Source of the DNA: Hyphomonadaceae bacterium | Lineage (GTDB): Bacteria > Pseudomonadota > Alphaproteobacteria > Caulobacterales > Aquidulcibacteraceae | Direction of reading: 5' to 3' | DNA length: 64,000 nt | NCBI GenBank assembly: GCA_016791445.1 | Contig: JAEUMP010000024.1 | Span: forward strand, 62,001 to 126,000 | Shown: one piece after another, positions 10,379 through 60,863 of the stretch | Position numbering within the stretch: position 1 is the first letter of the stretch | Layout: each line of letters starts with the position of its first letter | Program-made: the position numbers and the translations under genes | Notes under the pieces: model-generated | The model's input: the letters and a program-made list of their open reading frames with translations, nothing else | Database searches by the model: none | Told to the model about the DNA's origin: nothing

Positions 10379-12463
10379 ATGCTGGCGCGGCAGCATGACC
10401 GGTGGGCCCTTTGGCCGCCTGTAGCGGTCATTCTGGGCGCTGCAGCGTGGATGACCGCCCCCACGGATCCCAATCCCTGGATTGCACCCGTGGGCATGAT
10501 TGTCGCGACGGCGACGGCGTTCGCCCTCGCTGCAGCACCGGTCACGGGGCGGGGTCGCCTGCGCATGGCTGCGGCGGGCGCGATGCTGATGGTCGCCGCC
10601 TTTGCGTCGGGCGCGCTCGCGGCGCAGATACGTACGGCGACGGTGGCGTCGCCGCGTGTCGCCGAAAACACGGGTGCGGTGCGTCTGACCGGCTGGGTGC
10701 TCGATGCGGAGCCGGGCGCCACGCGGCCGCGCATGAAACTCCTCGTGGACGACATCGCCTCGGAAATGGAGACGCCGCGCTTCGTGCGGCTTTCCTCGTC
10801 GTCGGTGATTTCGCCGGGACGTGCAGTGAGTTGCCTCGTGCTCTTGCGTCCGCCCGAAGGCCCGATGGCCCCGCGCAGTTTCGACTCCGCGCGGCGCTTT
10901 TACTTCCAGAAGATCGGTGCGACCGGCATCGTCCTCGGGCGGTGCCGTCCAACGAACGCACCCCCGCCATCGGCATGGACGGACCGGATCATGGTCTGGA
11001 CAGCCGCGGTGCGTCGCGACCTGACCGAGAGCATCGTCGCGATGGCTCCCCACGAAGGCGGCGCCATCGCCGCCGCGCTGGTCACAGGCGATCGCAGCTT
11101 CATGAGCAAGGCCACGGGCGACGCTTTCTGGGGATCGGGTCTCGGACATCTCCTGTCCGTATCCGGGCTTCACATGGCGCTGATCGCAGGCGGAATCTAT
11201 GCCGGCCTTCACTTCCTGCTCGCGCTCATTGCGCCGTTGGCGCTGCGGTATCCCATCCGCAAATGGGCGGCGGCGACGGCTTTGATCGGCGGCGGCCTGT
11301 ATCTCGTCGTGTCAGGCGCCAGCGTGCCGGCGCAACGTGCTTTCGTGATGACGGCGCTCGCCCTCGGCGCAATCCTTATCGACCGTCCGGCATTCAGTCT
11401 GCGCGCGCTTGGAGTGGCTGCTGTGATCGTCGTCGCGATCGCGCCGGAATCGGTCGTGGACGCGGGGTTCCAGATGTCCTTCGCGGCGACGGCAGCACTG
11501 ATTGCAGCGTTCGAGCGTGGGCCGGACCATGCGCCGGCGCCGGTTGCGCCCGGGCTTCTGCTTGGAGGGCTGGATTCATCGTGGCGCGTCCTGTCGGGCA
11601 TGCTGGTGGCCAGCCTCGTGGCCGGGCTCGCAACGGACGTCTTTGCCGTCTACCACTTCCAGCGTGTGGCGGTTTACGGCCTCGCGTCGAACATGGCGTC
11701 GACGCCTCTCATCAGCTTCGTCATTGCGCCTGCGGCCGTGATCGCCGCCGTTCTCGCTCCTTTCGGGCTTGCGGACGTTCCGCTCGCTGTCATGGCAGGG
11801 GGGCTCGACATGGTGGCGGCGATTGGGGGCGTCTTTGCGGATCGCCCTGAGGCGCTGCGGCCGTTGCCTGTGGCGCCGCTGTCGGCGTTTCTTCTCGCCA
11901 TAGCCGCGCTGGCGTGGGCATGCCTTTGGCGCGGGGCGATCCGCTGGGGCGCCGCAGCGATGTTTGCTGCGGCAGCGCTGCTCTACGCCACCACACCGAA
12001 GCCGGTGCTCTGGGCGGACGGCGATTTCCGCGCCATTGTTGCCGCGACGCCGGACGGGTGGGTGGCGCTTGCAGACCCGAGACGCGGCGCATTTGCGCGG
12101 GGGCGTCTCGCCGGCCTTGCGGGCGTCTCCGCGCTGCAGTCGGAACGGCTGCCGTCGCCCGACGCCTGCGACCCTGACATCTGCTCATGGACTACGCCGC
12201 ACGACAGGGCCGTCTATCGCGTCCGCAACGAGCGTGGCGTCGAGAAAGCTTGTGCGCCCGGGGCGATCGTGCTCAGCGATGCGCCGCTCCCGAGAGACTT
12301 CGCACGACGCTGCGGAGCCGCGTTCGCAGTCGATCCAGCGAATCTTGCTGAGAATGGCGGCCTGTCCGTGGCCGAGAGCCGCGACGGCATCAGCATTCGG
12401 CGCGCGCGCGACCACGCCGGTCACAGGCCCTGGTCCGGAAAACTCAGGCGTAGCGGCGAATGA
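10379..12463 (+). CDS. comEC: ComEC/Rec2-family DNA uptake membrane protein
   Basis: Inner-membrane channel for single-stranded DNA entry in natural transformation. Order: N-terminal helices with a DUF4131-like domain (about 15-190), then the Competence core with the family motif [19 protein letters not shown], then multiple helices. The C-terminal portion is short and lacks an obvious metallo-beta-lactamase HxHxDH motif, as in many alphaproteobacterial ComEC proteins. The start is uncertain: ATG 10379 is chosen, with GTG 10355 and ATG 10247 also in frame, but 10247 would overlap the divergent gltX start. The 3' end overlaps lexA by 20 bp. Confidence 0.9.
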
Positions 12464-13139
12464 GCGCGACGAGCTTGCCCTGGATCTGCACCCGGTCCGG
12501 TCCGAAGATGCGCGTCTCGTAACGCGGGTTCGCTGCTTCGAGCGCAACCGAATTGCCCTTGCGCCGCAGCCGCTTCAGCGTCGCCTCCTCGCCATCGACG
12601 AGAGCGACGATGATGTCGCCGGTGTTGGCGGTGTCGCACCGACGCAGCACGACGACATCACCTTCGAGGATGCCCGCGTTGATCATGGAATCGCCCTTTA
12701 CCTCGAGGGCAAAGTGTTCGGCGTTCGCCGCGAGATCGCCCGGCGCGGTGATGCGGCCGATTTCGGTCTCTATGGCCTCTTTGGGTACGCCCGCCGCGAT
12801 CTTGCCGAGGATCGGAATTTCATAGCCGCCATCGAGTTCGCGATCGGCCTCACGCACAGGCTCCCCGCCGACCAGCGCGGGTTTGAAGGAGGCGCGACCG
12901 CGCGGCGGCGCAGCAGGGGTCGCGGAATCAGGAAGCTTCAGCACTTCCAGCGCACGGGCCCGATGCGCCAGGCGCCGGAGAAACCCGCGTTCCTCCAGCG
13001 CCGTGATCAGGCGGTGGATGCCCGACTTTGACGCCAGATCGAGCGCTTCCTTCATCTCGTCGAAGGAGGGGGAGACGCCCGTCTCCTTGATCTTCTGGTG
13101 GATGAAAAGGAGCAGTTCTTTCTGCTTCGCCGTGAGCAT
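12444..13139 (-). CDS. lexA: LexA repressor (SOS regulator)
   Basis: Represses DNA-damage genes and self-cleaves when RecA is activated. It has 231 residues. The winged helix-turn-helix covers about 1-65 ([19 protein letters not shown]). The cleavage site is Ala116-Gly117 in LGKIAAGVP. The catalytic Ser151 is in [10 protein letters not shown] and Lys189 in EEATLKRL, so autocleavage should work. The preceding 103 bp contain LexA boxes, so it is autoregulated. In many alphaproteobacteria moeA and moaC lie between trpC and lexA; they are absent here. Confidence 0.97.
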
Positions 13140-13180: not shown

Positions 13181-13231
13181 GAACAAAAGGTCAACGCCGG
13201 ATGTTCTATGTCCGTTCCCGACTCGGGTCAA
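13181..13231 (-). promoter_or_regulatory. lexA promoter with two LexA (SOS) boxes
   Basis: A perfect alphaproteobacterial LexA box GTTC-TATGTCC-GTTC lies at 13203-13217, and a one-base variant on the minus strand (GTTG-ACCTTTT-GTTC) at 13181-13195, 22 bp apart or about two helical turns. A minus-strand promoter can be read as -35 TTGACC (13226-13231), 17-bp spacer and -10 TAGAAC (13203-13208), so the perfect box covers the -10. The second box would lie at about the transcription start. Both are upstream of lexA and downstream of the trpC stop. Confidence 0.82.
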
Positions 13232-60095: not shown

Positions 60096-60435
60096 GTTCA
60101 GTTCTCCAAAGTTGCGCGGCGCGCTGCATGGCGGCCTTGGTGTGACGGAAGCGTCGTTGCGAACGCGTCGCGCCTGAAATTGGTCGGCGTCGACCCATCG
60201 GACAGGCGAACGATGGCGTTGGTCTTTGGGCCAAAGCGAGTGCTGGCCGGGAGTCCAGGTTGGTGCATGCGCGTCATGTCTCTGCCGTGTCGCTCACCCT
60301 AGAGGCGGCCCTTTCTTCGTCAACATATTTGACGATTGACAGCGCGCGCGCTTCCGGACGTGCGCCGGCGCCCGCGGAGTCGTCTCTCAAAAGACGACGC
60401 CACGGCGTTGGGGACAGCGATGGTACGGGCGCACG
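60096..60435. other. Non-coding stretch with an inverted repeat
   Basis: No convincing gene. The clearest element is the inverted repeat CGTCAA-CATAT-TTGACG (60318-60334), followed at 60336-60341 by TTGACA. This could be an operator for the AhpD-like gene, which would then have a long leader, or part of a plus-strand promoter without a visible gene. Small frames in this stretch have no ribosome site or recognisable content. Confidence 0.45.
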
Positions 60436-60747
60436 TCAGCAGCGCGCGGGGGCAAACCTCGCGGGAGCAGGCGGACGTGCAAAACCACGAGCGGGGCGCA
60501 ACACCCGCCCGCGTGCATGACGCGAAATGAAACCCAAGGCCCGCTCACACAACGGACCCGGCGCGCGCGACGCATGAAAGAGGGAGCGCCGGACAACGGC
60601 GTCACGCGAGATCTTCCGACGGCTGGCGCGCATCCGCGCCACGGGCGGCGCACACGTCTCCACGGCGGTCACAGGACGCGCCGGCGCCGCCTGCCACAGC
60701 AGGAGCCCCCCGACCGCCAGAACCAGAACCATGAAGAACGCGAGCAC
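60436..60747 (-). CDS. Putative SOS-induced small membrane protein
   Basis: Unrecognised protein of 103 residues from a GTG with GGAGG five bases upstream. Residues 2-18 (LAFFMVLVLAVGGLLLW) form one transmembrane helix; the rest is Arg/Ala/Pro-rich with three Cys and no domain. ATG 60732 is an alternative start. The promoter overlaps a perfect LexA box, so it should be switched on by DNA damage. That layout recalls Caulobacter SidA, a small membrane inhibitor of division, but no homology is visible. The C-terminal tail might be read-through of a shorter peptide. Confidence 0.55.
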   Translation of the reverse strand: MLAFFMVLVLAVGGLLLWQAAPARPVTAVETCAPPVARMRASRRKISRDAVVRRSLFHASRAPGPLCERALGFISRHARGRVLRPARGFARPPAPARFAPARC

Positions 60748-60778
60748 ATCGGCCTCCGTTGAAAAACCTGAGGCTAAA

Positions 60779-60811
60779 GTTCTCTATATGTTCTATTGGG
60801 GCAAGTGACAA
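60779..60811 (-). promoter_or_regulatory. SOS-regulated promoter (perfect LexA box over the -10)
   Basis: On the minus strand: -35 TTGTCA (60806-60811), spacer of 17, -10 TATAGA (60783-60788). The LexA box GTTC-TCTATAT-GTTC spans 60779-60793 and covers the -10 completely. The expected transcription start is near 60776, about 29 nt before the GTG of the small membrane protein. It is one of only two perfect GTTC-N7-GTTC sites I found between genes. Confidence 0.8.
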
Positions 60812-60863
60812 TTCGGACAGGGAGGAGCGACGCCCGGTTGCGTGAGCCTTCGCGGCGATGTGA

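Follow-up and report, generated by a model that had tools for sequence, protein, structure and literature searches.

The window, that is the whole stretch of 64,000 nucleotides analysed here from contig JAEUMP010000024.1 of a Hyphomonadaceae bacterium, carries on its minus strand a small gene for a product of 103 amino acids, together with a promoter overlapped by a LexA box, a 5' leader and a hairpin past the stop codon, and the same window holds lexA, which encodes the presumed regulator (Table 1). In a protein search of the window's own genome (G000) and 60 relatives, with which a DNA search agrees, the small gene was found in nine copies in G000 and in nine copies in G001, one of the other two genomes of the same genus. 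The sequence-only reading of this locus had described a promoter TTGTCA-N17-TATAGA, whose -10 lies within a GTTC-N7-GTTC LexA box, followed by a GTG frame that is preceded by GGAGG and opens with a single membrane helix. The letters are indeed all in place, and the box, the frame and the helix are borne out; the role of TTGTCA as the -35 is not, since its first three positions vary across the 18 copies and conservation falls instead on ACTTG, immediately downstream. A plain consensus scan reported no sigma-70 promoter at the locus, and a terminator scan reported no classical terminator at the 3' hairpin.

Table 1. Features of the small-gene locus and of the lexA locus, in window coordinates
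Feature	Position	Strand	Evidence or remark
Whole conserved unit (LexA-box promoter, 5' leader, small gene, 3' hairpin)	60357..60821	-	Homology block common to 18 copies; edges approximate
TTGTCA, -35 of the sequence-only reading	60806..60811	-	Present at the window locus; unconserved across the family
ACTTG element, likely true -35	60802..60806	-	Near-constant distance to the box; ACTT in 18/18 copies, G in 17/18
LexA box, minus strand GAACATATAGAGAAC = GTTCTCTATATGTTC	60779..60793	-	Both half-sites invariant in 18/18 copies
TATAGA, -10 of the sequence-only reading, within the LexA box	60783..60788	-	Bases differ among copies
Ribosome binding site GGAGG	60753..60757	-	17/18 copies; GGAGT in the remaining copy
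Small gene, GTG start at 60747, TGA stop at 60436, 103 aa	60436..60747	-	GTG and TGA in 18/18 copies; zero internal stops
N-terminal membrane helix, residues 2-19	60691..60744	-	AlphaFold2 helix; substitutions stay hydrophobic (17 of 19 strictly so), P = 0.004
mRNA stem 1, in-gene, GCGYGRCGC...GCGYCGCGC	60562..60610	-	198/198 cells paired; A-U to G-C compensatory changes
mRNA hairpin 2, loop GUGUG, invariant UGUGUGAGC	60537..60559	-	Alignment of copies
3' hairpin past the stop; possible terminator without T run	60373..60404	-	97.4% of cells paired; compensatory changes
lexA (231 aa), presumed regulator	12444..13139	-	TIGR00498 above cut-off; Pfam LexA_DNA_bind and Peptidase_S24
LexA box of lexA itself, GTTCTATGTCCGTTC on the plus strand	13203..13217	-	lexA of G001 is preceded by an equivalent box

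As to the regulation of the family, every one of the 18 copies has GAAC-N7-GAAC in the same position, 44-47 bases before the start codon, and in the alignment of the box all eight half-site columns and two A positions of the spacer are invariant, whereas the nine columns flanking it on each side include no invariant one. The conserved element upstream reads T-C-ACTTG and keeps the same spacing to the half-sites; presumably ACTTG serves as the -35, in which case its spacing would suit a Caulobacter-type promoter with the -10 reaching into the second half-site. One GTTCN7GTTC in the window says little alone (5 are observed there against 2.1 expected), but the conservation across the 18 copies rules out a chance box. 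In the pattern searches on which the genome-wide promoter statistics are based, G000 has 25 instances of the AT-cored form GAACAWANNNNGAAC, nine of which belong to the family, and 0 instances of the reversed control pattern. Moreover the motif is confirmed by the canonical boxes at lexA, recA (GAACACAAGGGGAAC) and ssb-uvrA (GAACATAAGTGGAAC), the latter two each being identical in G000 and G001, and GTTC-N7-GTTC is also the published LexA motif of the alpha-proteobacteria (PMC3323433). As in a member of the LexA regulon, the operator of the class overlaps the promoter and is conserved, here in 18/18 copies, and the predicted LexA control of the family is well supported by this comparison. One more box, on contig 225 of G001, has the same sequence as two boxes of the family; the frame it goes with is an unrelated one.

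The coding function of the frame is seen in the way it varies. Besides the start, stop and ribosome binding site retained as in Table 1, stop codons interrupt the two remaining forward frames in 14/18 and 18/18 copies, and among the segments between conserved anchors the 25 rows that deviate in length from the mode inside the frame do so by multiples of three, against 24 of the 28 deviating rows outside it that do not. Such triplet-only indels inside the gene and not outside indicate that the frame is translated, and they exclude a non-coding repeat with an accidental frame. Within the predicted helix, 17 of the 19 amino-acid alternatives are strictly hydrophobic, with 11.7 expected (P = 0.004), the other two being threonine, and AlphaFold2 places a helix at residues 2-19 with mean pLDDT of 94 and 85 in the first two ten-residue blocks and about 50 in the remainder, no structure being predicted past the helix. 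The tail is arginine-rich, and a cationic tail as a selected feature was rejected because its positive charge is no higher than base composition predicts. Most of the tail amino acids drift freely across copies, and with an overall dN/dS of about 0.86 the protein sequence as a whole is under little constraint; the products range from 97 to 139 aa, and the most diverged of the 18 copies retain protein identity of down to 43%. The product has zero matches in Pfam, NCBIfam, PHROGs, PADLOC and PDB. That it is an undescribed membrane effector is a prediction well supported by the comparison of copies, and this much of the earlier proposal of an unannotated SOS membrane effector stands, with the LexA box, the helix and the frame kept in all 18 copies and no named family to which the product could be matched.

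The message of the gene is conserved also as a structure. In stem 1, which lies inside the gene, both partners of A-U pairs changed together to G-C in five copies, and another double change occurs as well, so that linked amino-acid swaps are imposed, D with S and G with P; in hairpin 2 the invariance extends to third codon positions, and double changes are present in the 3' hairpin as well. The intermediates are G-U and not A-C, which means that the folded form is the sense RNA. The stability of the whole mRNA is not unusual (z = -0.37). A Hok-like pairing between the start and the end of the mRNA was also considered and rejected: it is 90% paired, the covariation of its main helix does not exceed that of shuffles, and its second helix found weak support. 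Rfam has no match inside the gene, and the sole score above the gathering cut-off is the neighbouring tRNA.

The distribution of the family is narrow. Outside G000 and G001, the protein search of G000 and its 60 relatives gave one single match, near the threshold, and G002, the remaining genome of the genus, had no clear copy. A scan with a covariance model built on the central region returned exactly those 9 + 9 places and zero places in 297 other genomes of the order, while a protein profile finds nothing beyond the nine own copies among 385 sampled genomes of the class and, in the taxonomic family, just three near-threshold matches outside the genus. We regard the weak protein matches in other genera as chance, as they lie near the threshold and the RNA model has none in those genomes that it covered. 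In the collection of named genomes the only match is a Caulobacteraceae MAG, isolate X3_MaxBin.015, and through this same-genus partner the order is that of Caulobacter. The sequence-only reading had taken the gene for a lone one whose relatives escape detection through fast divergence, and in this respect it has to be corrected, since two species each have nine copies. It had named the absence of box and helix from close relatives as a refutation; the outcome here is mixed, as they occur in G001, mostly at other sites, and not in G002.

The copies are flanked by ordinary chromosomal genes, the neighbours being ordinary metabolic genes, and 2/9 sites are syntenic between G000 and G001. Even at these two shared sites (L097/L105 and L099/L106) the copies are not mutually closest and lie no nearer to each other than to further copies, mostly those of their own species, which suggests either homogenisation within species (concerted evolution) or repeated replacement and site reuse. 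The neighbourhood of tRNA-Ser that holds the window copy is empty in G001, though the far flank is rearranged there. No target-site duplications were found, the own flanks of the copies sharing no more than mismatched flanks do; the family has zero matches in plasmids, phages and viral contigs, and no transposase is associated with it. A phage, plasmid or viral origin is rejected by these zero matches, and a transposon with target duplication by the absence of duplications.

Several other LexA-like sites were observed in G000. A second dispersed repeat, of which at least nine copies exist in this genome (L066, L067, L069, L070, L072, L073, L076, L078 and L082) and none in the window, has a promoter like TTGACA-N17-TATACC in which a GTTC-N7-GTTC box, mostly GTTCTGTTTTTGTTC, forms the spacer, and downstream of the promoter several hundred conserved bases that include a short frame (MNSTDPLTDGQLDKGARKHPEPCRRITITGTRT...); it is possibly another LexA-gated dispersed unit. 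The hits of a DNA search aimed at this repeat fell for the most part on a palindromic intergenic repeat and were left out of account. At L074 (G000:C8:7395-7443) tandem GAACN7GAAC boxes, GAACTTTACAAGAAC and GAACACAGAGAGAAC, stand upstream of a 139-aa frame, and G001 has a similar tandem pair at C64:19729-19777. At L071 (G000:C6:252102) the box GAACATAACAAGAAC precedes a partial and divergent LexA/S24-like gene (UmuD-like), which adjoins a 177-aa frame resembling an antitoxin-nucleotidyltransferase fusion.

As a best explanation for the small gene, we propose a genus-restricted family of nine dispersed copies that would encode LexA-repressed single-helix membrane peptides on a structured mRNA, with a design nearest to that of TisB and DinQ; on the comparative evidence we give this reading about an even chance. 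Each copy would yield a single-pass peptide with an N-terminal hydrophobic helix and a long disordered arginine-rich tail. LexA would hold the copies silent, and upon DNA damage the RecA-driven cleavage of LexA would turn all nine on together, so that cells with damaged DNA would probably produce membrane peptides in a burst. These would enter the inner membrane with the cationic tail on the cytoplasmic side, as expected from the positive-inside rule, and the stem-loops may set the translation or the stability of the message. By analogy with the LexA-controlled TisB and DinQ of E. coli, the most likely effect would be membrane perturbation and slower growth during the SOS response. Against this reading weigh the length of the product, the lack of an antitoxin RNA among the sequences searched, a tail charge no higher than composition predicts, the high dN/dS, the ordinary stability of the whole mRNA and the poor covariation of the pairing between its start and stop regions.

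Three other explanations deserve a conscientious weighing against this model. The product could be, as the sequence-only reading proposed, a division inhibitor of the SidA kind, in which the helix binds a late divisome protein (FtsW, FtsI or FtsN) and septation is blocked until repair. The combination of a LexA box with one membrane helix is that of SidA, and the order is the same as that of Caulobacter, the genus partner being labelled Caulobacteraceae; but published accounts of SidA and DidA concern single genes rather than nine-copy dispersed families, the product, at about 100 aa, has a tail that drifts freely, and it has no link to the divisome, either through its metabolic neighbours or through any homology found. 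We consider this explanation unlikely. It is also conceivable that the RNA comes first, the stem-loops being the product itself, either a regulatory RNA or one that binds protein, under LexA control, with the frame existing mainly for ribosome passage or for a conserved stop. For this speak the amino acids of stem 1, which change pairwise (D/G with S/P) and thereby preserve the base pairs, the loop sequence UGUGUGAGC with its invariance down to third codon positions, and a dN/dS near 1. Yet the perfectly triplet indels, the retention of GTG, GGAGG and TGA, and helix positions that tolerate only hydrophobic or near-hydrophobic residues all argue for a translated product, and an RNA-first role seems improbable to us.

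The third explanation is a selfish dispersed element, namely a non-autonomous mobile unit whose transcription is tied to the SOS response with zero benefit for the host. The nine copies in each of two species with so few syntenic sites, the shared-site copies that are not each other's closest relatives, the empty tRNA-Ser site of G001, and the second dispersed repeat of the same genome, which likewise has a LexA-like box in its promoter, would all agree with it, and like a MITE the family has dispersed copies and an empty site; however, the target-site duplications of a MITE are absent, there is neither a transposase nor a plasmid, phage or viral-contig match, and the intactness of all 18 copies fits a maintained function better than passive decay. 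We therefore hold a purely selfish element to be quite unlikely.

SOS-induced small membrane proteins are an already known kind, usually found singly and hard to prove from sequence. Here the 18 natural variants provide a built-in comparison, in which operator, helix, frame and RNA stems stand out as the parts that are kept. It is tempting, though we offer it only tentatively and as rather less than probable, to see in the family a new class of dispersed SOS gene: a self-contained unit, made of a LexA-gated promoter, a structured coding mRNA, a membrane peptide and a 3' hairpin, that would multiply within the chromosome, be homogenised per species, occupy about one third of the strict LexA-box sites of the genome, and upon DNA damage release nine variant membrane peptides in one coordinated burst. 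In the literature searched, no description was found of a family dispersed in nine copies whose coding mRNA is structured and LexA-gated. The family points to an SOS response in which, across a whole lineage, a dispersed family absent from current protein and RNA libraries can predominate, and it offers a compact test case for the origin and spread of SOS membrane peptides.

In comparison with known systems, SidA is a 29-aa inner-membrane protein which interacts with FtsW and acts as an SOS division inhibitor, and DidA is SOS-independent (PMC4211646). The family shares with SidA the LexA box at the promoter, the single membrane helix and the bacterial order, and differs from its 29 aa, single gene and FtsW partner by its 97-139 aa, nine copies and structured mRNA; its mode of action may possibly be SidA-like. 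DidA (71 aa) is likewise a small one-helix membrane protein of the DNA-damage response; in contrast to its SOS-independent induction by DriD, all copies of the family carry a conserved LexA box. Among toxins, DinQ is LexA-regulated, has a GTG start and depolarises the membrane (PMC3567139), as does TisB, and the usual architecture of membrane type I toxins is a single helix together with a cytosolic C-terminus of positive charge (PMC8309996). The family resembles TisB and DinQ in its LexA-controlled promoter, its single-helix membrane peptide and its mRNA structure, sharing moreover the GTG start with DinQ and the cationic C-terminus with toxins of the TisB type; one helix and a cationic C-terminus are indeed found here, where the cytosolic side is a prediction and the charge is that of the base composition. 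Unlike these toxins, which are short (TisB has 29 aa; type I toxins usually stay under 60 aa) and have an antisense RNA as partner (IstR-1, AgrB), the products have 97-139 aa in the 18 copies and no antisense RNA was found; for an antitoxin acting in trans, a search of G000 with the conserved leader, allowing up to 3 mismatches, matched nothing beyond the family itself. Hok, Ldr and Ibs are multicopy type I toxins with dispersed chromosomal copies, a narrow range and one helix, and they differ in having antitoxin RNAs and in not being LexA-box families as a whole; no sequence relation of the family to them was detected. Since no antitoxin was found, the length is atypical and a divisome link is missing, the family is assigned neither to the type I toxins nor to SidA. 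As far as analogy can guide, we lean to the view that copy number, narrow range and mRNA structure favour a type I toxin model, and that taxonomy favours a SidA model.
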